A stretch of DNA of 64,000 bases from Planktothrix tepida PCC 9214 (GTDB lineage: Bacteria; Cyanobacteriota; Cyanobacteriia; Cyanobacteriales; Microcoleaceae): NCBI RefSeq assembly GCF_900009145.1, contig NZ_LN889782.1:1354922-1418921 (forward strand). Reading direction: 5' to 3'. The notes beneath the pieces were generated by a model. The model saw nothing but the letters and a program-made list of their open reading frames with translations. It searched no databases and was not told the DNA's origin. Position numbers and translations under genes: made by a program. Of the stretch, positions 2,640-12,631 are shown piece by piece (position 1 is the stretch's first letter; each line of letters starts with the position of its first letter).

Positions 2640-3278
2640 TTAAAAGGGTAGATCAATCAGTAATTCAGGTTTAATGGGATTTAAAGGGGGATGTTCTGGA
2701 TCGTCATCCCAACGGGCAGGATTTTCAACGATATATTTTCTAATATGATTTAAAGCCCTTTCATCTCGGATAATTTCTTCATAATAATCTCGTTGCCAAA
2801 TTAATCCTTGACCGGAATTATTACAAATTCTATTAATCAATTTAGAAACAGAAGATTTATACCAACCCACAACAGCACCCAAGGATTTTGGGGCAGCACC
2901 ATGAGGTTGTTGTGTTGATTTTGCTGAGATTTCTAGTTGTGATAATGATGTCCGGTGTAGGGGCGAGGCGCGCCTCGCCCCTACGGGGAATTGAGGATCT
3001 GAAAGGATTTCATGAAAGATTAAAATGCCATGAATATGATTAGGCATGATGACAAAATAATCTAATTCAACATGAGGAAATGTTTCAGGAATTTGTTGCC
3101 AAGTATTAAAAGCGATCGCACCTAAAGAATTAAATCGCATTTCACCTTGAACAATATCTCCAAACAAACATTGTTTTTCTTTTGTACAAATTGTAACAAA
3201 ATATCCTCCTGGTTGAGTATAATTATATCCTTTTAAACGAATAAAACGACGATGATGAATTTGTGGATTGTAGGGCAT
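2640..3278 (-). CDS. REP-associated tyrosine transposase (Y1_Tnp/RAYT family)
   Basis: Single-strand DNA transposase of the HUH/Y1 superfamily, 212 residues. The N-terminal module reads YTQPGGYFVTICT, followed by MPNHIHGIL, where the HIH at residues 81-83 is the metal-binding HUH motif. The catalytic tyrosine is in WQRDYYEEII (Tyr165 or Tyr166), followed by the family's IRKYIVENPARW. Unlike true IS200/IS605 elements there is no partner TnpB and no visible insertion-sequence ends. Instead, GTAG-headed palindromes lie on both sides (2590-2609 and 3400-3419), as expected for a domesticated RAYT that acts on dispersed REP repeats. A third palindrome is inside the gene and translated as residues 99-108, in the linker between the HUH and tyrosine parts. 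The frame is intact, so the gene may be active. ATG start at 3278. Confidence 0.9.
   Translation of the reverse strand: MPYNPQIHHRRFIRLKGYNYTQPGGYFVTICTKEKQCLFGDIVQGEMRFNSLGAIAFNTWQQIPETFPHVELDYFVIMPNHIHGILIFHEILSDPQFPVGARRASPLHRTSLSQLEISAKSTQQPHGAAPKSLGAVVGWYKSSVSKLINRICNNSGQGLIWQRDYYEEIIRDERALNHIRKYIVENPARWDDDPEHPPLNPIKPELLIDLPF
2957..2984. repeat. REP-like palindrome inside the RAYT gene
   Basis: Perfect 28-bp palindrome, GTAG + GGGCGAGGCG + its reverse complement. It shares its core with the copies at 2590 and 3400 (C for T at one position of each arm). It is read in frame as residues 99-108 of the transposase. Because it is palindromic through the tetranucleotide, GTAG is present on both strands. 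Confidence 0.9.
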
Positions 3279-3399
3279 ATTAGTTTAAAAATAACTTAGT
3301 AGAGTAAACATCCGAATTCTACATTTTTAGTGCGATGATAGCAATCCTAAATTGATTTTAGAAACGATAATTAAGATATGAATCTAAATTTCTGTGTCA

Positions 3400-3419
3400 G
3401 GGTGAGGCGCGCCTCACCC
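3400..3419. repeat. REP-like palindrome, copy 2
   Basis: Same 20-bp palindrome as at 2590-2609 and in the same orientation, with GTAG on the minus strand (CTAC at 3421-3424... read as TAC after the final C of the arm). It lies between the RAYT gene start (3278) and the end of the NACHT gene (3458). Confidence 0.83.
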
Positions 3420-3457
3420 CTACGATAAAATGGATTTCTGATTAGGCTTTCTATAGC

Positions 3458-5764
3458 TCATCTAGGGTTGATTTCAGAGATTGGTAATAATAATGTTTGC
3501 TCAATCTCATTACGCACGTTGGGCGATACTTTACAACCGCTATTGAGACAATCAATCAATAATTTATTAGCATTGTAATATTGATTTAAAAGGTGTTTTT
3601 GTGAATCTTTAAAATCCCAATAATGACCAACGTTTCGATATTTAATGATTGCATATCTTAATTTTTTTACTAAATGTCGAACGCTATCATCCCACCAGTA
3701 TTGATAGGCATCTAAGTCAAAAGTAAGATAGTAATCAGGTTTTTTACTGCTTATTTCAAGCAGTAAATACTTAAGTTCAGGCTCAAATTCTAGTTCAGAG
3801 TCATTGATAAAAGCGGGGGCATCGCCGAGGATACGACAAAGCTCAAAATCAAGGTTAATATCACTATGCTTTACAGCATCATGCTTTAGATTAAGACCTA
3901 GAGAAACGGCAATCTCAGAGTCGAAGCACTCCTCAAAAAGGTCAATATAAGGGTTAGGATTAAGGCAAGCAGCATCCAGAGAAAGAGATATGTCATAGTA
4001 AAATGCTCGTATGGCTGACAGCTTGTACGGAACTTTAACTGAACTAGATTTCTGTTGAACCCATATTAGAAATGCTTGTAAATGGTCATCTTCAGCTACC
4101 AAAACATCAATTTTTTTCTTTATTAACCTCAATAGCTCATCAGCATTCTTTAACATCCCAGTAATCAGCAAAAATACTTCACGCCACCTTGGATCAGTGA
4201 TATGGTTGATGCTAACTAAGTTTGGCCAATCTGTACACTTCGCAAAGCTTTTAGCTGTGAAATACTCCTGAAATGTTAAGTGAGAAAAAGAGTAAATTTT
4301 TTGCGCCCGCTCCACCAATAACCCATGCTGCGCTTCAATTGATTTCAATATCGCCTCACTATCCAGTTGTAGAGCTTCTGGGTCATTTTGAGCATCAGGT
4401 AAATTGCGAATATAATCAGAAATATACTGCTCTAATTCTTTTTGTTTAAAGAAATAATCTCCTCGCTCAAATGTTGTTAAAGCAATTTGACTTAGTAAAT
4501 CTTTTTTACGCTGTAATGATAGATTTTTATAAACCTGATCTCGTTCTATGTTTCGTGTTTCATCCCATTTTTTTAGTAAAATATTAATTCCTTCTTCATA
4601 AAGTTCTGAACGATTAGCCGGAAATTTGAGTGAGTCTTCAAAAACTAAACATAGTAACGTTAAAAGCAGTGGATTAGTTGCTAATTCTCGAATTCGACTA
4701 TTTTGTTCAAGTTCTTGAATAAATTCATAGAAATTTCCAAGATCGTTAAGTTGAAACCAGTTTTGAACAAAAGTAAAAATCTGTTTATTATCGAAATCTG
4801 CAACTGCAACCTCTCTAAATTTCTCAAAATTATAAGTTTTCGCTGCACTTCGACAAGTGATTACAAATTTATTCTGGCGAAATTTTTCCGACAAATCACG
4901 AACTTGCTTGATAACACGGCTATTATCCTCTATTTTTACTTCATCCAAACCATCTAATAAAATTAGTAACTTCCCCTGTTTCAAAAGAATAGATACCTGT
5001 TCACAAGAAACATCATAATCAGAAAATATCTCGGTGATGTATTCCAATAAGCTCGGTTTTTCTGCGACTTCTGCAAATTGCTTGAGTGTAATAAAAATTG
5101 GCACAAGTTCAGCTTTAAAATTAGCTTGATTACATTGGATAGCTAAATATTTTAAAAACGTGGTTTTTCCTGACCCTGGCTTACCTAATACCATCAATTT
5201 TGAGTATTTCTTAACCGCTTCTTGTCCTGATATCGCTTTTTCAGTTATTCTACCCAGCCCAACGCGATCAAAGTTTTCAGGGTTGCAGTCTTGCAACAGT
5301 TCATCAATTTCGCATCGTCGATGACTGGTAATTTTTTCCAGAACATTAACGTTAGTGTAAAGGTCACTGACATCAATGGGTTGTGACATCGTGAGCGATC
5401 GCATTGTACCACATTGATCTTGAATTATTTCATAACACTTCTGGCGGACTTCTTGCACTAAATCATTTAGCTCATCCTCTGACAGATTAGAGGTTTGAGA
5501 GTCAGAAACCTTAAATTTTTGATACTCAGTAGTTAGAAAATTGAGCAAGCGACCATATTTCCCTGGGCCTTTGCCATTAATACTAAACTTCTTGTAAACA
5601 TGACTCATTCGAGTGCGAAGTGCCGTATCAGAAATATGAAGTTCTGTTGCTATCTCTAATTCTGTCTTTTTACTATTAAACCAGATTACAAAAGCATCCT
5701 CTTGCTCTGGTGAAAGATCATATTTACGAGCCATTTCCATTAAAAATTCACGGGGTAGCGACAT
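3458..5764 (-). CDS. HTH-NACHT STAND NTPase, possible defence or stress sensor
   Basis: 768-residue signal-transduction NTPase. Residues about 18-60 form a LuxR/sigma-like helix-turn-helix (ELEIATELHISDTALRTRMS). A NACHT domain follows: Walker A GKPGSGKT at 194-201, Walker B LLILLDGLDE at about 266-275, and the downstream segment FSHLTFQEYFTA at 493-504 typical of NACHT winged-helix regions. The C-terminal 260 residues are helical with no recognised repeats and may be the sensor part. NACHT proteins of this type are common in cyanobacteria, and some bacterial NACHT proteins protect against phage; neither function is shown here. It is divergent from a PD-(D/E)XK-like gene, with three 10-bp direct repeats between them that its HTH could bind. 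No toxic effector domain is visible, so the nuclease-like neighbour is a candidate partner. Confidence 0.85.
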   Translation of the reverse strand: MSLPREFLMEMARKYDLSPEQEDAFVIWFNSKKTELEIATELHISDTALRTRMSHVYKKFSINGKGPGKYGRLLNFLTTEYQKFKVSDSQTSNLSEDELNDLVQEVRQKCYEIIQDQCGTMRSLTMSQPIDVSDLYTNVNVLEKITSHRRCEIDELLQDCNPENFDRVGLGRITEKAISGQEAVKKYSKLMVLGKPGSGKTTFLKYLAIQCNQANFKAELVPIFITLKQFAEVAEKPSLLEYITEIFSDYDVSCEQVSILLKQGKLLILLDGLDEVKIEDNSRVIKQVRDLSEKFRQNKFVITCRSAAKTYNFEKFREVAVADFDNKQIFTFVQNWFQLNDLGNFYEFIQELEQNSRIRELATNPLLLTLLCLVFEDSLKFPANRSELYEEGINILLKKWDETRNIERDQVYKNLSLQRKKDLLSQIALTTFERGDYFFKQKELEQYISDYIRNLPDAQNDPEALQLDSEAILKSIEAQHGLLVERAQKIYSFSHLTFQEYFTAKSFAKCTDWPNLVSINHITDPRWREVFLLITGMLKNADELLRLIKKKIDVLVAEDDHLQAFLIWVQQKSSSVKVPYKLSAIRAFYYDISLSLDAACLNPNPYIDLFEECFDSEIAVSLGLNLKHDAVKHSDINLDFELCRILGDAPAFINDSELEFEPELKYLLLEISSKKPDYYLTFDLDAYQYWWDDSVRHLVKKLRYAIIKYRNVGHYWDFKDSQKHLLNQYYNANKLLIDCLNSGCKVSPNVRNEIEQTLLLPISEINPR

Positions 5765-5835
5765 TAACCAATTTCTCCATAGCTTGAAAGCGAATCCAGT
5801 CTTTCTAATCTAGCCTAAAACTATAGTTAAGACTA

Positions 5836-5877
5836 CTCTAATATTACTGATTCGGGAATAAGAATAATATTAAAGAG
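5836..5877. repeat. Imperfect inverted repeat in the divergent promoter region
   Basis: CTCTAATATTA at 5836-5846 faces TAATATTAAAGAG at 5865-5877. The arms match except for a two-base extension in the second. It lies between the divergent NACHT and nuclease-like genes and could be an operator or simply AT-rich promoter sequence. Confidence 0.4.
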
Positions 5878-5901
5878 CAGCCTAAAATTGAAGATTGTAG
5901 A

Positions 5902-5931
5902 TAAGTCAGCCTAAGTCAGTCTAAGTCAGCG
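5902..5931. promoter_or_regulatory. Three 10-bp direct repeats (iteron-like) between divergent genes
   Basis: Three head-to-tail copies of TAAGTCAGYS occupy 5902-5911, 5912-5921 and 5922-5931, differing only at the last two positions. The period of 10 bp places each copy on the same face of the helix. A shorter related motif, AGCCTAA, occurs at 5812, 5879 and 5908. The block lies 137 bases from the NACHT start and 70 bases from the nuclease-like start. Operator function is inferred from phasing and position. Confidence 0.55.
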
Positions 5932-5987
5932 TTAACTTGAGAGATATCTCCAAAACAAAATTGCGACATTGAATTTAGCAATTTTTT

Positions 5988-5991
5988 GGAG
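5988..5991 (+). promoter_or_regulatory. Ribosome binding site GGAG for the nuclease-like gene
   Basis: GGAG ends nine bases before the ATG at 6001. It overlaps the in-frame TTG at 5986 and lies too close to the ATG at 5992, so it decides the start in favour of 6001. Confidence 0.65.
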
Positions 5992-6000
5992 ATGGTTTTT

Positions 6001-6654
6001 ATGAAAAGAACCTACATTAATGGACGGGTTTACTACCAAGACGAAAAAGGCATTCGGCTACCATCCGTTACTACCATACTGAAGGCTACACAACCTATTG
6101 AGTCTGTTGGGACTCTTTCTAATTGGCGCAATAAGGTAGGAAATACAGAAGCAACTCGTATGACTTCAACGAGTCGTCGCCGAGGAAAATTATTGCATCA
6201 GTGGGTTAAGGACTATTTACAAGGGTTATCTCCTGTTGCTGATAGCCTAATTCAACCTTATTGTTATAGTCTGAAATCGGTTTTAGAGAAACTCAGCGAT
6301 GTACAGTTAATTGAGACAGTTGTGCCAAATTATGTCGAAGGATATGCTGGGAAAGTTGATTTAGTTGCTCGTTATCAAGATGTTCCCTGTATTATTGAAT
6401 TGACAACGGCTGAACAACCGAAACAGCAAATCAGAAAACTTTACGATAAGCCGTTACAATTGGTTGCTTATGGAGGTGCAATTAATCGCTATTACAGAGA
6501 TAGTTTGTTTGGTGCTAAAATTTCTAACGGTTTGATTATTGTTGCACTTCCAGATCAAGATGCAGAAGAATTTCTGATGGAACGGAAACAATTAATTATT
6601 TATTGGCAGGAATGGTTAAAACGATTGGAAAAGTATGTTAAAAAAGCTGCCTGA
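6001..6654 (+). CDS. PD-(D/E)XK nuclease-like protein (RecB/MGME1-type fold)
   Basis: 217-residue protein resembling the small RecB/MGME1-like nucleases. In order: LPSVTTIL (residues 20-27) like the family's start, RGKLLHQWV with His66, Glu105 in LIETVV, YAGKVDLVARY with Asp120, IIELTTAE with Glu133, and LQLVAYGGA with Gln153 where the family has QLAAY. The spacing fits a PD-(D/E)XK core, but the lysine of the (D/E)XK motif is threonine here (Glu133-Leu-Thr135), so catalysis may use another residue or be lost. The GGAG at 5988-5991 picks the ATG at 6001. It is divergent from the NACHT gene and shares a promoter region with iteron repeats. No helicase or other RecB partner is nearby. Confidence 0.7.
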   Translation: MKRTYINGRVYYQDEKGIRLPSVTTILKATQPIESVGTLSNWRNKVGNTEATRMTSTSRRRGKLLHQWVKDYLQGLSPVADSLIQPYCYSLKSVLEKLSDVQLIETVVPNYVEGYAGKVDLVARYQDVPCIIELTTAEQPKQQIRKLYDKPLQLVAYGGAINRYYRDSLFGAKISNGLIIVALPDQDAEEFLMERKQLIIYWQEWLKRLEKYVKKAA

Positions 6655-7742: not shown

Positions 7743-8101
7743 AAACCTTTCGTTAAATCCAATCTACTAAGTACAGGTTCTAATCCCACTTTAGAACATT
7801 AAGCAAGGGTTACTCACTGTGTCCATTTTACTGCCCAGTGCAGCCAAAGTTTGGATTTCCCCCCTCACTGTAATACATCAGCCTTAATCTAACCACAACT
7901 TCAAGCTGGATTTTTTAAGATTTGCTGACGTTGAACTAATTGTGTTACAGATCAATAAATTATGCCAGATTGGGTCACTCTTTGACATTTGCAACCCTTG
8001 AGCTAACCCAGATGGCAACGGTCAGAAATAGTGTATCTGCTGTATTTCTACACAATCTGCTATCTTAACACAAGAGAGCAGACTATTCAGGGAGGGCGAA
8101 A
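7743..8101. other. Divergent intergenic region between cp12 and the FIST gene
   Basis: 359 bases carrying the presumed promoters of cp12 (leftward) and the FIST gene (rightward). A GGAGGG ribosome binding site for the FIST gene is at 8091-8096. A TTGACA hexamer occurs at 7982-7987 without a convincing -10 partner. No repeat, hairpin or small gene was found. Confidence 0.6.
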
Positions 8102-9385
8102 ATGGCAGAATCGACAACCAAACCGATGCGCTGGGTTAGTGCTTTATCCCAACGTCCTTCATTAGAAGCGGCGATTAAGGAAGTCGTGGAACTAGCTCAA
8201 GATCACCTACGCGCTTCTCCAGATTTAGGCTTAGTCTTTATTTCCTCTGCCTTTGCTAGTGACTATTCCAGATTAATGCCGTTACTCCAAGAACAGCTTT
8301 GTCTTCCCACTTTGATTGGTTGTGGTGCTGGGGGGGTTGTAGGGATGAATTCTAGGCACCAAGCTCAAGAAATCGAGGGAGAACCTGCTCTCAGTTTGAT
8401 GTTGGCCCATTTGCCTGATGTTAAAGTTCATCCGTTTCATTTATCCGCCGACGATTTACCCGATTTGGATAGTCCCCCGGATCAGTGGGTGGACTTAATT
8501 GGGGTAAAACCGGAAGATCAGCCGCAATTTATTGTTCTCGTTGATCCGTATTTCGGTCAAATCAATGATTTTTTGCAAGGTTTAGATTATGCCTATCCGG
8601 GTTCGGTGAAAGTGGGAGGACTGGCCAGTACGGGTGTCATGGGAGGAACAACGGGAGTGTTTTGTGGTTCCCGACTGTACTCGGAAGAAATTGTCGGTTT
8701 AGCCTTGCACGGGAATATTGTGATTGAAACCATTGTTGCCCAAGGTTGCCGTCCCATTGGCTATCCCTATCGAGTCACCCAAGGGGAACGCAATATTGTC
8801 TTAGAAGTGGAAACTCAAGCAGAGGATGCGGATTTGGAAATGGCTTCTTCTGGGGTATCCGTGCGTTTATCCCCCTTAGAAGCGTTGCAAGACCTAGTAC
8901 AGGACTTAAACGAAGAAGATCGACAACTTGCTCAAAATTCCCTGTTTGTTGGGGTTGTGCGGGATGAATTTAAACAAAAATTAGAACCGGGAGATTTTTT
9001 AATCCGTAATTTAATTGGGGTTGATCCTAGGGCTGGGGCCATTGCCATTGGCGATCGCGTTCGTCCAGGACAACGGATTCAATTTCACCTGCGCGATTCT
9101 CGCACCTCCGCAGAAGATTTAGAATTGTTAATGGAACGCTATCAACGACAAGCTTCTTCTTTTCCCGAAGAAATGACCAATGCGGCGGCGTTAATGTTTT
9201 CTTGTTTAGGACGGGGAGAGGGACTTTATGGGGAACCTAACTTTGATTCTGAACTCTTCCGACGGTATTTGAACATTCCTCTGAGTGGCTTTTTCTGTAA
9301 TGGTGAGATTGGCCCGGTTGGAAATGGAACATTTTTGCATGGTTATACCTCGGTCTTTGGCATTTGTCGGCAAAGGAAAAATTAA
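8102..9385 (+). CDS. FIST domain sensory protein (FIST_N + FIST_C)
   Basis: 427 residues with an N-terminal FIST domain (about 20-225; LGLVFISSAFASDY, LIGCGAGGVVG, SVKVGGLASTGVMGG) and a FIST_C domain (about 230-415; GCRPIG, LFVGVVRDE, ALMFSCLGRGEGLYG, GFFCNGEIGPVG). FIST is a predicted small-ligand-binding domain found in signal-transduction proteins. No kinase, methyl-accepting or membrane segment is fused, so output must go through partners. The next gene, 74 bases on, encodes a CheC-like protein, which suggests a two-protein sensory unit. Start ATG 8102 is preceded by GGAGGG at 8091-8096. The ligand is unknown. Confidence 0.88.
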   Translation: MAESTTKPMRWVSALSQRPSLEAAIKEVVELAQDHLRASPDLGLVFISSAFASDYSRLMPLLQEQLCLPTLIGCGAGGVVGMNSRHQAQEIEGEPALSLMLAHLPDVKVHPFHLSADDLPDLDSPPDQWVDLIGVKPEDQPQFIVLVDPYFGQINDFLQGLDYAYPGSVKVGGLASTGVMGGTTGVFCGSRLYSEEIVGLALHGNIVIETIVAQGCRPIGYPYRVTQGERNIVLEVETQAEDADLEMASSGVSVRLSPLEALQDLVQDLNEEDRQLAQNSLFVGVVRDEFKQKLEPGDFLIRNLIGVDPRAGAIAIGDRVRPGQRIQFHLRDSRTSAEDLELLMERYQRQASSFPEEMTNAAALMFSCLGRGEGLYGEPNFDSELFRRYLNIPLSGFFCNGEIGPVGNGTFLHGYTSVFGICRQRKN

Positions 9386-9459
9386 CCTTTCTACGATGAT
9401 CAAAAGAGGAATAAAGAGTTGTACCAACCTATCGAGTAAAAATTCAGTTTTTAAAATTT

Positions 9460-10059
9460 ATGAAGCGAAATTCAGAACATTTTTTAGTCTTGGAACAATT
9501 ATTTAAAGTGGGCATTGATCGGGCTGATTCGATGCTAGAAACAATTACTCGATCCCCGATAAAATTAAAATTACTTTCTTTGGATATATTTCCCCCACAG
9601 CATTTGACGCTTCAACTGGAAAAACAGTTAGGTTCAACGGATCTCAAGGCAATGGAATTGGTATTTACTGGAGAGTTTCAAGGAAATAGTCAACTCATGT
9701 TTCCTAAATCCACTGCCGGGATGTTAATTGATTTAATTGACAATCAAGAGCGGCGAAAATTAGATAAAGATGTGTTTGAAAAAGCCATTTTTAGTGAAGT
9801 TGGTAATATTTTTTATAATGGGATTATGGGAGTCATTAGCACCCTATGTGAATATGGAATTACTTATATGATTCCTAAATATAAAGAAGGAAATCTCAGA
9901 CAGTTACTCTTAGGAACGTTATCTCCTAAATATTCACTAGCCGTTATTGGAACAGTTCAAACGTTCCCCGACCGCAATCTTGTTTTCTGGTTTCAATTTG
10001 ATACCTTAGATAAATTGTTAGCCCAAAGCAGTAATCTTTCAGATTATTTTGATGTTTAA
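9460..10059 (+). CDS. CheC/CheX-like protein
   Basis: 199 residues. The segment AIFSEVGNIFYNGIMGVISTL (about 109-129, described here by its key residues Glu113 and Asn116) matches the E-x2-N active-site pattern of CheC/CheX/FliY CheY-phosphate phosphatases. A partly related N-terminal copy may be present around ADSMLETITRSPI (22-34), lacking the Glu/Asn pair. So one full catalytic half-site is visible, and the position four before Glu113 is Ala rather than Asp/Ser. It follows the FIST gene on the same strand, so a role in adapting a response-regulator signal is plausible but inferred. No chemotaxis or pilus genes lie in the window. Confidence 0.65.
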   Translation: MKRNSEHFLVLEQLFKVGIDRADSMLETITRSPIKLKLLSLDIFPPQHLTLQLEKQLGSTDLKAMELVFTGEFQGNSQLMFPKSTAGMLIDLIDNQERRKLDKDVFEKAIFSEVGNIFYNGIMGVISTLCEYGITYMIPKYKEGNLRQLLLGTLSPKYSLAVIGTVQTFPDRNLVFWFQFDTLDKLLAQSSNLSDYFDV

Positions 10060-10119
10060 GGGAACAGGGAACAGGGAACACTTCGACAGGCGAGCGTGCA
10101 AAGCAGGGAACAGGGAACA
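10060..10119. repeat. Interrupted (GGGAACA)n heptanucleotide repeat
   Basis: Three exact copies of GGGAACA (10060-10080) and two more (10106-10119) are separated by a 25-base non-repeat segment starting CTTCGACAGG. It begins immediately after the stop of the CheC-like gene. Short tandem heptamers of this kind are typical of filamentous cyanobacterial genomes. Confidence 0.85.
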
Positions 10120-10163
10120 GGAAAGAAATTATTAACTTTTAGTCCCTGAGTCCTGAACTTTTT

Positions 10164-11249
10164 TTAGGATAAGATTAACTGAGCAAAATTATCAATCTGA
10201 TCCGTTGCACTAAATCCTTCAAAGTAACGGCGAACAGTCGGTGGAAACACTTCAAAGTTAAATTGAGCATCTCCGTTAGCAATATCTGCCCAAAAATAGC
10301 GGAGATGAGGAACTAATTTCTCAGCTTCTTGAACGGTTAATTTTAAGGGTGGATTCGTTAATAATTTCATCATAAAAGGAAAGGAACGCTCACCCATCCA
10401 TTCTCTTGATTTTAACGGTAAATCTGGCCAATCTTCAACGGCGGTAATCCGATGGGATTCTATTTTCAATACAGGTTTCCCTTGAGCATTTGTATTGACA
10501 TGAATGACTCGATAGGGATGGGGATAACTGACTAATGATCCCGTTGTAATATCATAAATTCCTTGCCATTGGGCAATATCTTGGACGTGCAAATGTCCGG
10601 TAAAAACTAACTGCACTCCGGCTTGTTTTAATAAATTCAAAAAGCGAGGGGCGTTTTCTAACATATAGCGTCGTCCCAACGAATTTGTCGCTTGTCCAGG
10701 TAAATGTTCAATCACATTATGATGAATCATCACGAAAACCAATTGATTTTTGACATCAAATAAAACCTGTTCTAGCCACTCTAACTGTTCTTCTCTTAAA
10801 CAACCGATTTGATTACCCTGGGCATCAAAATGATTAGAATTTAATCCGATTAATTGTAAACCGGGTAAAATTTCCTGGGTATAATCTAAACTTTGAGTTT
10901 GTTGATATCCAAAGGAACGATAATACTGAGGGAATTCCCTAAAACCGATTAAATTTTTCTGACTTTCTAAGACAGGAAGATCATGATTTCCGGGAATAAC
11001 ATAAACTGGGTAAGGAAGCTGGCTTAACCGTTGACTTAACCATTGATGATTCTCTCGTTCTCCATGTTGGGTTAAGTCTCCGGGTAAGAGGAGAAAATCT
11101 AAATCTAACTGTCCTAGATGCTCTAATACCAGTTCTAAAGCAGGAATACTCACTTCAACTAAATGAAAGCGATTTGGATGATCCCAAATGGTCTGGGGTA
11201 GGGCAATATGCAAATCACTGACAACGGCAAATTTAAAATTTAAGCTCAT
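10164..11249 (-). CDS. Metallophosphoesterase (calcineurin-like, CpdA-type)
   Basis: 361-residue phosphodiesterase of the class III cyclic-nucleotide phosphodiesterase / 3',5'-cAMP phosphodiesterase type. All metal motifs are present in order: VVSDLHI (Asp12, His14), LLPGDLTQHGE, VIPGNHDLP, FVMIHHNVI, and FTGHLHVQD. The C-terminal 110 residues after the catalytic domain are an extension of unknown role. An upstream TTG would add 28 residues (start 11333), but those residues look random, so ATG 11249 is preferred. Substrate is not determined. Given that cyaC lies 14 kb away, cAMP is one option, but related enzymes use many phosphodiesters. Confidence 0.85.
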   Translation of the reverse strand: MSLNFKFAVVSDLHIALPQTIWDHPNRFHLVEVSIPALELVLEHLGQLDLDFLLLPGDLTQHGERENHQWLSQRLSQLPYPVYVIPGNHDLPVLESQKNLIGFREFPQYYRSFGYQQTQSLDYTQEILPGLQLIGLNSNHFDAQGNQIGCLREEQLEWLEQVLFDVKNQLVFVMIHHNVIEHLPGQATNSLGRRYMLENAPRFLNLLKQAGVQLVFTGHLHVQDIAQWQGIYDITTGSLVSYPHPYRVIHVNTNAQGKPVLKIESHRITAVEDWPDLPLKSREWMGERSFPFMMKLLTNPPLKLTVQEAEKLVPHLRYFWADIANGDAQFNFEVFPPTVRRYFEGFSATDQIDNFAQLILS

Positions 11250-11745
11250 AAAGAAATCAGTACAAGGGGAAATAAAAAGGCATTGCTTAACACAAAAATT
11301 GACCGGATTAGGGTATGAGATAACCGGAATCAATGTGTTTCATGAGATTGATTTTGTAAATCGGCTTTGATATCTTTCTTAAAAGAATATAGCGAAATTA
11401 ACGGGGTTTTTTAAAGTATATTAAGAATTTTAATATTTACGTTACATTTCTTGATATATTCCTGACGATTTGTTTGAGTAAAAATCTCTATTTTGTTTAA
11501 GGATTGGGATTAAAGTTTTTATATTTTTTTCTTTATGTAAATAAAATAAGACGAGATCTTCATCCTTGAAAAAAGTTCATCTGTAACAACGATCTGTATT
11601 TTTGAATACAGACAAATGATTTGTTTTCTGAATGTCAATCTGTACATATACTCATTTTTAACATAACTCTAAAAAGAGTTGAAATTCTTTAAGAAGTGTA
11701 ATACAATCCTTAAAGAATTGTTAAAAATTTTTTAGCAGTATACCG
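11250..11745. other. AT-rich divergent intergenic region
   Basis: About 500 bases between the metallophosphoesterase and the 92-residue gene. Very AT-rich. It holds one good hairpin (11593-11612) and a weaker palindrome CAATCCTTAAAGAATTG (11704-11720, one mismatch pair) just before the 92-residue gene. No small gene with a ribosome binding site was seen. Confidence 0.55.
11593..11612. repeat. 8-bp stem hairpin
   Basis: TCTGTATT, loop TTTG, AATACAGA. It lies about 130 bases upstream of the 92-residue gene. There is no following T-run, so it may be regulatory or an RNA leader structure. Function is unknown. Confidence 0.55.
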
Positions 11746-12024
11746 ATGCACAAGGACTATTACGGCTTATTAATCTCCGCGCTAAGTGTCCGTCATCGCT
11801 GGAAATGGCAAATTATTCTTCCTTATGGCGGGTATTTGACCTCCAGCGAAGACTATTCATCTGCCGAAGATGCTCTCAGTGGCGGAAAATGTTGGGTAGA
11901 ACGAGAGTCAACCTTTAATGCAATTAATAGCTGTTTGGCTCAGTTTTATAGCGCGGGTGTGCTCAATCCTTCGGAATATAGTAGTTTAATGGATTCTCTG
12001 CGGGGTATTACTCAACGCTGTTAA
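11746..12024 (+). CDS. Small conserved-looking hypothetical protein, 92 residues
   Basis: Not recognised. The protein is soluble-looking, with an aromatic-rich first half (RHRWKWQIILPYGGYLTSSEDYSSAEDAL) shown here only by its pattern: a beta-strand, then Gly-Gly-Tyr, then a helix starting SAEDAL that resembles small DUF-type domains with an extended sheet plus helix. Two cysteines occur (about residues 49 and 63), plus a terminal one. Its codon use and composition match its neighbours. It overlaps the converging isochorismatase-like gene by 17 bases. There is no clear ribosome binding site. A long AT-rich upstream region with a hairpin precedes it. Confidence 0.6.
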   Translation: MHKDYYGLLISALSVRHRWKWQIILPYGGYLTSSEDYSSAEDALSGGKCWVERESTFNAINSCLAQFYSAGVLNPSEYSSLMDSLRGITQRC

Positions 12025-12631
12025 TTTGAGCCTCCAGTTGTTGAATTTGAGAGTGCCAAGTTTCTAAACAGGAGGGAATTTCTTCCAAGGTCACGACCTC
12101 TAATAAATAGTTTAAATAACGCTTAAGGGTAATCGCGTGAGATTCTGGATAATCGGCACAACAATCAGAAATCATCACGGTTAAAAATCCCAATTGAGCA
12201 GTTGAAGCGGCGGTAAACAAAACGCACACAGAAGTCGCTAATCCGGCGGTGAGTAAAAAACGTTTGCCTCTTGTCTGAAGATAATCAATGAGTTGGGTAT
12301 TTTGACATCCATCTAAAGTGTATTTTTCAAAGACTTTTTCCCCTGGAAGTTCCCTCGCCCAATCTAATACCTCAGCACCGGATGTTCCTCGAATGCAAAT
12401 CGCACGTTCTCTCAAACGATATCGGGGTAGCCAATTAGAGCCATTCGGTTCAAAGACTTCGCGTAAATGAATCACTTCTAGTTCTTCTTGGCGACAAAAG
12501 TTGAGCAGGCGACGAATATTGTTGGGAAATTCGGGAAAGGCTGCTTGGAGTTGAGGTTCCCAAAAATCATTTTGAACATCAATCAGCAGTAGTGCAAAAG
12601 GTTGCCATTGATGAGAAAAATTAACAGTCAT
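12008..12631 (-). CDS. Isochorismatase-family cysteine hydrolase
   Basis: 207-residue member of the isochorismatase/nicotinamidase superfamily. The catalytic triad is visible: Asp18 in LLIDVQNDF, Lys103 in FEKYTLDG, and Cys136 in TSVCVLFTA; the cis-peptide region GLATSVC precedes the nucleophile. The family splits C-N or C-O bonds in small metabolites (nicotinamidase, ureidoacrylate hydrolase, others); the exact substrate cannot be read from sequence. An upstream TTG at 12637 is rejected in favour of ATG 12631. It is last in a close-packed four-gene row with 21 bases to the leucine-rich-repeat gene. Confidence 0.88.
   Translation of the reverse strand: MTVNFSHQWQPFALLLIDVQNDFWEPQLQAAFPEFPNNIRRLLNFCRQEELEVIHLREVFEPNGSNWLPRYRLRERAICIRGTSGAEVLDWARELPGEKVFEKYTLDGCQNTQLIDYLQTRGKRFLLTAGLATSVCVLFTAASTAQLGFLTVMISDCCADYPESHAITLKRYLNYLLEVVTLEEIPSCLETWHSQIQQLEAQINSVE

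Follow-up and report, generated by a model that had tools for sequence, protein, structure and literature searches.

A 64,000-nucleotide stretch of the 6.78-Mb genome of the cyanobacterium Planktothrix tepida PCC 9214 (contig NZ_LN889782.1, positions 1,354,922 to 1,418,921; hereafter the window) carries two genes that are transcribed away from each other from a common spacer. One codes for a STAND NTPase with an N-terminal helix-turn-helix (HTH) domain and the other for a 217-residue relative of the mitochondrial exonuclease MGME1, and the pair is real and conserved. At an orthologous site in Nostoc the STAND partner is exchanged in place and the nuclease stays constant, and the nuclease belongs to a subfamily in which the active-site lysine appears to have moved. 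With a probability of about one half, we read the pair as a two-gene immune module in which a shared promoter links a STAND regulator with an exchangeable sensor to a nuclease effector that stays constant.

The two proteins and their conserved pairing

The putative sensor and regulator is a 768-residue protein (3458..5764, minus strand, as are its domains), delimited from the list of open reading frames (ORFs), Pfam, and an AlphaFold2 model. Its HTH (residues 1-85; 5510..5764) scores weakly in Pfam over residues ~17-64 (Sigma70_r4_2 0.054, GerE 0.17), and its extent is supported by the N-terminal types and swap boundaries in relatives. This is followed by a NACHT NTPase core (4745..5209; Pfam NACHT, residues 190-338, 2.7e-18) with intact Walker A (GKPGSGKT) and Walker B (LLDGLDE) motifs, in which G194..K200, D271, D274, and E275 are invariant among 27 aligned homologues. 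The presumed C-terminal sensor segment, residues ~506-705 (3650..4248), is mostly replaced in the nearest Planktothrix genome, and an NCH2 domain (residues 672-761; 3482..3751; 1.2e-29) ends the protein. The AlphaFold2 model is of moderate quality (predicted local distance difference test score, pLDDT, 76.6), with NOD2, NLRC4, and NLRP3 as its top folds in the PDB. As a sequence-only reading of this DNA had held, the Pfam scan found no effector domain in the protein, nor did it find one among 20 scanned partners from relatives. PADLOC and NCBIfam matched no specific system to the window pair; PDC-S60 (2.9e-15) and EruA (1.7e-15, far under its cut-off) cover only the NTPase, and a Cas4 match is weak.

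The nuclease, a putative effector, is encoded at 6001..6654 on the plus strand and begins at the ATG at 6001 rather than the TTG at 5986, as five other aligned paired homologues (217-219 residues) begin at the equivalent ATG. Pfam PDDEXK_1 falls under its cut-off (E 0.015), while PHROGs gives exonuclease phrog_298 at 1.9e-30 and a phmmer search of the PDB finds human MGME1 at 3.5e-25. The AlphaFold2 model (pLDDT 95.5) matches MGME1 with a TM score of 0.81, other folds being far weaker, and by sequence and predicted fold the protein is a homologue of MGME1. Together with the ORFs and the Pfam matches, these results bear out the earlier description of an HTH-NACHT protein standing back to back with a nuclease-like protein. 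The nuclease is under purifying selection, with a ratio of nonsynonymous to synonymous substitution rates of 0.11-0.23 (12 pairs). A phage origin was considered and rejected, the best phage homologues being only ~30% identical; the three inspected retain the motif III lysine and have tyrosine at position 150. A plasmid search with the nuclease returned a single match (29% identity), and an IMG/VR scan a single weak one (28%).

A nuclease homologue was found in 51 of 195 genomes of the order. The four closest relatives besides the window (73-75% identical) all have a divergent NACHT gene, and the divergent partner of a 55% homologue at locus L066 is an XRE-HTH protein whose NTPase is shortened and whose end is NCH2-like. 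What is left in P. rubescens (L067, ~8511-9942) is the C-terminal half of each gene, the two lying directly against each other without their 5' parts or the spacer. Across 84,980 species genomes, a scan yielded 27 nuclease loci, all cyanobacterial by title, of which 24 were assessable, that is, with the nuclease whole or nearly so and upstream DNA present (left out were L085, which lies at a contig edge, and L106 and L108, both truncated copies from Planktothrix). A divergent ORF starts -27 to 236 nt away in 23 of these; at the 24th, L093, it lies at 447 nt and looks broken. A pattern-free survey by E-value covered 217 genomes of one family, 95 of them with a match, and showed a gap in identity between full-length homologues at 54-65% and the others at no more than 48% (G295, a 61%-identical fragment with a stop, is excluded from the counts). 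At 25 of the 27 newly added loci of the upper class, the nuclease has a divergent ORF that starts at -27 to 159 nt and whose N-terminus belongs to one of four HTH types; the partners at the remaining two, L112 and L119, look broken. Divergent co-occurrence across a spacer in other genomes, the check proposed in the sequence-only reading, is thus what both sets show, and the conserved divergent pairing rules out chance adjacency of the two genes.

The lower-identity homologues served as a control. Their survey loci (L009-L031, L076-L078, L137, and L138) have a divergent HTH-type ORF in 4 of 28 cases (L030, L076, L077, and L078), all from the [DE]-F-K subgroup described below, and a NACHT match was found at none of 13 large loci of such homologues. 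An HTH-NACHT gene is present at E ≤ 1e-40 in 136 of the 195 genomes of the order, widely without the nuclease, and nucleases that keep the motif III lysine (K-type) are likewise widespread alone, most of them without a divergent HTH-type ORF. The earlier concern that the genes might occur widely on their own is therefore justified for HTH-NACHT proteins and K-type nucleases but not for the lysine-shifted nuclease, which alone is tied to a STAND partner.

In MGME1, the residues for catalysis and substrate binding are H180, E223, D238, D251, K253, Q271, and Y275, according to a portion of PMC6237815. The PDB phmmer alignment gives H66, E105, D120, E133, T135, Q153, and Y157 as the window equivalents, with T135 (6403..6405, plus strand) replacing the motif III lysine, K253. 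In alignment A2, position 135 is threonine in 28/28 paired nucleases and lysine in 21/21 of the K-type, and a second lysine, K150 (6448..6450, plus strand), is present in all 28 paired nucleases versus none of the 21. Motif III of the paired nucleases reads E-L/W-T throughout (28/28), departing from the D/E-x-K form, and H66, E105, D120, E133, Q153, and Y157 are invariant in the same 28. In the nuclease model the motif IV helix (150-165), which also bears Q153 and Y157, begins with K150. One of the two patterns used to scan genome contigs was K[LF]YDKPLQ, so that K150 was partly selected in those loci; an artifact of this kind is ruled out by the E-value survey, where all 27 loci show the same H, E, D, E, T, Q, Y, and K150 pattern without exception.

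Migration of the lysine from motif III, with threonine in its place, to motif IV is known in other PD-(D/E)XK families from parts of PMC1913061 and PMC1189080. DUF1626, DUF506, and DUF790 have threonine or another residue in motif III and lysine or arginine in the motif IV helix (PMC1913061), and K150, judged by alignment and model, resembles such a migrated active-site lysine. Unlike in those families, the shift here appears recent and lies inside the MGME1 family: the paired nucleases share with MGME1 and phrog_298 the fold, the sequence, and the catalytic H, E, D, E, Q, and Y, and differ from them in the motif III threonine and the new invariant K150. An unshifted paralogue is found in half of the genomes, as 14 of 28 genomes with a T-type nuclease also carry a 42-48% identical copy, called K-type by identity class with only some of the sequences read. 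Because the catalytic residues and K150 are invariant, selection is purifying, and lysine migration has published precedent, the paired nuclease is more likely active than dead.

Several distant members of the nuclease family were noted along the way. A 30%-identical homologue at L156 (nuclease on the minus strand) has threonine in motif III and lysine at the K150 position, with no STAND neighbor in the sequence stretch examined. A third subgroup with motif [DE]-F-K, in which the lysine is kept (L139, L140, L141, L142, L148, L076, and L078), has a divergent HTH gene and then a second large gene; the large genes scanned from L139, L140, and L148, and likewise the HTH gene of L078, give AAA_35 or nSTAND1/AAA_22-type matches, and this may be a parallel pairing. 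In a Planktothrix genome (L077, 7899-9131, plus strand), an HTH-AAA protein divergent to the nuclease ends in a UPF0175 domain (3.3e-20). At L150 (2704-5880, minus strand) and L151 (3477-5831, minus strand), a distant family member is fused to a sigma-70 factor (its regions 1.2-3 or 1.2-4), and the fusion continues with either a glycosyl hydrolase 1 domain or tetratricopeptide repeats (TPRs); passages from PMC11119718, which surveys sigma factors in cyanobacteria, make no mention of a nuclease or PDDEXK domain.

Exchange of partners, HTH domains, and spacer repeats

Although the divergent unit is conserved, the pairing of NACHT with nuclease that was first described is too narrow, as the partner need not be a NACHT protein. 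Only 7 of the 20 scanned partners pass the NACHT cut-off, the rest giving AAA_16, NB-ARC, or ATPase_2-like matches. NCH2 is present in 14, TPRs in 2, and neither in 4, and GerE is above its cut-off in 7. The N-termini, sorted by eye, fall into two LuxR-like and two XRE-like types.

Fourteen Nostoc loci lie at one chromosomal site, with pyrD-like and TROVE-like genes (named from sequence) on one side. In all 91 pairs of these loci, the flank beyond the partner is covered to at least 81% and the nuclease coding sequences are 86.7-98.0% identical. With partner ends set by hand, and approximate for L093 and L098, coverage of the partner body is below 80% in 87 of the 91 pairs, below 30% in 70, and below 10% in 57, and the 14 loci hold 11 different bodies at a coverage threshold of 80%. 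Between L088 and L090, homology ends at 5798, beyond the 3' end of the partner, and returns at 7975, leaving 26 nt to the start of the nuclease. At this orthologous site one partner has taken the place of another, and the nuclease is constant. The HTH and its operator behave as a separate swap unit: L088 and L105 have the same whole body with a different HTH plus spacer, L088 and L091 have the same HTH plus spacer with a different body, and 34 of the 91 pairs have one unit in common but not the other.

Replacement of a smaller segment is seen in Planktothrix. Compared with the window, the nearest relative (G404) is 96-97% identical over the HTH, spacer, and nuclease side and 86% over the NTPase part; most of residues ~506-705 then has no counterpart, apart from one 158-bp stretch that still matches at 68.5%, and identity afterwards returns to 96%. 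In the same genome the NACHT gene is interrupted by IS200/IS605-type tnpA and tnpB-like genes (named from sequence; L159, 6000-7654). A tree-based minimum of 9 HTH, 5 NTPase, and 5 C-terminal changes is rough, with 15 of 28 inner branches unresolved and labels assigned by eye, and we rely on DNA synteny instead.

The shared divergent spacer of the window is 236 bp long (5765..6000) and contains three 10-bp TAAGTCAG units at 5902-5931, direct repeats (TAAGTCAGNN, plus strand) that form a putative HTH operator. The TAAGTCAG triplet occurs once in the 6.78-Mb genome when up to 3 mismatches are allowed and in none of 100 shuffles of the window, and its units are conserved across five aligned spacers of this type, with a single change in one unit at L083. 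For each HTH type the spacer carries a distinct conserved element: three TAAGTCAG direct repeats in type a, a CCTAACTAATACCCAAAATCACGCATTT block in type b, GTCATACAC-like direct repeats in type c, and the palindrome GTACACATCTGTGTAC in type d, except at L102. The HTH and the spacer repeats change together; the nuclease side of the spacer stays common to types b, c, and d, with a AGTTGATGTAGT box from which L103 deviates. Repeats of 9-12 bp (p ≤ 0.05) stand upstream of 14 of 29 distinct HTH-NACHT genes versus none of 23 K-type nucleases, where the former count comes from 15 of 30 rows with the window counted twice, leaves out one further locus that is too short, and includes some close kin that are not all independent. 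The iteron promoter proposed earlier is upheld in that three repeats lie in the shared spacer, but it is not peculiar to the pair, such repeats being found upstream of many other HTH-NACHT genes. We read them as the HTH's own putative operator, shared by the divergent nuclease.

Tandem triplets of 9-10 bp, mostly of differing sequence, also stand near the start of solitary HTH-NACHT genes at L034, L035, L037, L042, L046, L049, L050, L055, and L057 (L034 and L035 at p 0.066). A hairpin (5946..5993, plus strand) that would pair the nuclease ribosome-binding site GGAGAT (5988-5993) appears to be a weak and minor feature, as its energy is unexceptional (z -1.6, with 16 of 200 shuffles as good) and its covariation near nil (a two-sided change at 1 of 28 pairs).

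Genomic surroundings

The stretch around the pair had been read as accessory, and this is half right. A RAYT-like Y1 transposase gene (2640..3278, minus strand) does lie beside the module, outside it, but the genes beyond it, which we take to be crtB and pds, and a DUF3177 gene (Pfam) on the opposite side do not fit that description. The RAYT itself is a borderline call, with a Y1_Tnp match of 22.7 bits against a cut-off of 23; near-identical copies (88-89%) occur elsewhere in four other Planktothrix genomes. Short repeats lie by it near 2587-2614, 2951-2993, and 3397-3424, and a GC-rich palindromic repeat close to the gene is found in many further copies throughout the genus. At L088 the Nostoc site adjoins a TROVE/Ro60-like gene (named from sequence), and not far away is another STAND gene of HTH type, which carries TPR-like repeats (4034-5635 and 9859-12189).

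Nine neighboring proteins in three chosen relatives were scanned with PADLOC, two of them giving no match. The neighbors at L064 are pPIWI-RE proteins (PprPIWI 5e-64, PprDinG 5e-152), those at L063 are PsyrA and PsyrT (1e-141 and 0), with PsyrTA directly adjoining the pair, and those at L062 are a type II-like methyltransferase and a weak TIR-like match.

Proposed mechanism and competing explanations

In the mechanism we favor, the STAND protein, made up of HTH, NTPase, and C-terminal sensor, would act as an ATP-dependent transcription regulator on the private tandem operators in the spacer and control both its own gene and the divergent nuclease gene. Upon infection, the variable sensor region may recognize a phage-derived cue, and the NTPase module would oligomerize on the operator and so switch the nuclease on. 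The nuclease, as a relative of MGME1 and phage exonucleases whose catalytic lysine has apparently shifted out of motif III into the motif IV helix, would degrade DNA, either that of the phage or that of the cell itself in abortive infection. In-place recombination would replace the sensor and leave the nuclease constant. A role in defense is suggested by the architecture, the allelic diversity, and the defense neighbors in three relatives. Coupling by transcription is favored over protein contact because the partner bodies are so unlike and the promoter in the divergent spacer is the only constant link noticed. More tentatively, the Nostoc site may be a polymorphic NLR-like receptor locus, fixed in place, with cassette-exchanged HTH-STAND receptors and private operators that are promoter-wired to one invariant, lysine-migrated MGME1-type nuclease.

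Several findings weigh against the immune module. The module is not always maintained, as partners look broken or short at L089/L112, L093/L119, L114, L126, and L128 (at L126 the nuclease also has a stop, and at the others its frame is open). Upstream of 15 of the 29 HTH-NACHT genes there are no significant repeats, and NCH2 in most partners leaves room for a conserved protein contact. Finally, the window pair and the Nostoc loci lie between housekeeping-like genes rather than in a defense island, and the Nostoc site is fixed.

HTH-STAND transcription regulators include the MalT/LAL and AfsR/SARP kinds. The present proteins share with them the combination of HTH, STAND NTPase, and sensor, with TPRs in two partners, and differ in that the HTH is N-terminal and swapped between types, the predicted target is a nuclease, and the alleles are hyperdiverse. 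To bNACHT antiphage proteins and Avs/STAND NTPases they are alike in the NACHT NTPase, the C-terminal sensor, and the NCH-type domain. Here, unlike in those proteins, the putative effector is a separate divergent gene and not an N-terminal fusion in cis, the N-terminus is a DNA-binding-type HTH, and the nuclease stays constant while the sensor, the class of NTPase, and the HTH next to it are exchanged. Multicellular bacteria, filamentous cyanobacteria among them, are known for conflict systems with STAND modules and inactive or variable parts, including diversifying NACHT sensors (portions of PMC7159879 and PMC10907252). The sensors in the latter are diversified by diversity-generating retroelements, while diversification here is by cassette exchange; no search for a reverse transcriptase was made. 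A literature search, mostly outside subscription journals and bioRxiv, found no description of this nuclease-STAND pair. Nor did the literature searched mention a constant nuclease in divergent position, the exchange in place of sensors and of HTH-operator units, or the lysine shift.

The alternative that survives best, although we consider it unlikely, is an effector engaged at the protein level, whereby the STAND protein directly recruits or oligomerizes the nuclease after sensing, as a split form of NACHT-PD-(D/E)XK fusions. STAND immunity with nuclease effectors is known: the clade 6 proteins bNACHT25 and bNACHT32 carry a fused N-terminal PD-(D/E)XK DNase that is needed for defense, and clade 14 proteins, like those described here, have no discernible effector (both from sections of PMC12169576). 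NCH2 in 14 of the 20 partners would also fit such contact, but the same nuclease is used by the two TPR partners and by the four with neither NCH2 nor TPRs, the partner bodies at the one Nostoc site are mostly non-homologous, and a DNA-binding-type domain always occupies the effector position.

Somewhat less probable is a cellular function outside defense, with the pair regulating DNA metabolism, cell death, or self/non-self recognition and the sensor diversifying for other reasons. Allorecognition in fungi also relies on hypervariable NACHT loci, and the fixed Nostoc site and the metabolic neighbors in the window agree with such a role. The pPIWI-RE proteins, PsyrTA, and the methyltransferase with a TIR-like gene that adjoin the pair in the three closest relatives scanned speak for defense instead, as do the patchy distribution and the decay in Planktothrix.

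Improbable, in our estimate, is a guarded decoy, in which a nuclease killed by the change of lysine to threonine mimics an active host paralogue or a phage exonuclease, and the STAND protein guards it and reacts to phage contact. The second, presumably K-type copy in half of the genomes provides a possible original, and inactive enzyme copies are discussed as decoys for related conflict systems in part of PMC7159879; against this, a decoy might lose its catalytic residues, whereas here the others and K150 are invariant under purifying selection, and the best phage homologues are only ~30% identical. Least probable of all is a toxin-antitoxin-like addiction pair, with the STAND protein repressing or inhibiting a toxic nuclease much as the sequence-only reading had suggested: the divergent shared-operator layout, the HTH protein adjoining a nuclease, and PsyrTA immediately beside the pair in one relative would suit it, but open nuclease frames persist beside all the broken-looking or short partners named above other than L126, whereas such a toxin would be expected to be lost or silenced along with its antitoxin.

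If the pair is an immune module with promoter-level coupling, it would represent a form of immunity whose sensor is replaced as a whole and whose effector is wired through DNA, by way of the operator, and not through protein contact. This would explain how HTH-bearing NACHT and STAND proteins that lack an effector serve immunity, namely through a separate effector gene under their control. The lysine shift would be a recent and still-paired case of active-site lysine migration, which could be compared with the K-type paralogue in the same genome. The Nostoc site would then provide a natural set of at least 11 different sensors, all connected to a single effector, with which sensors may be matched to phage cues.

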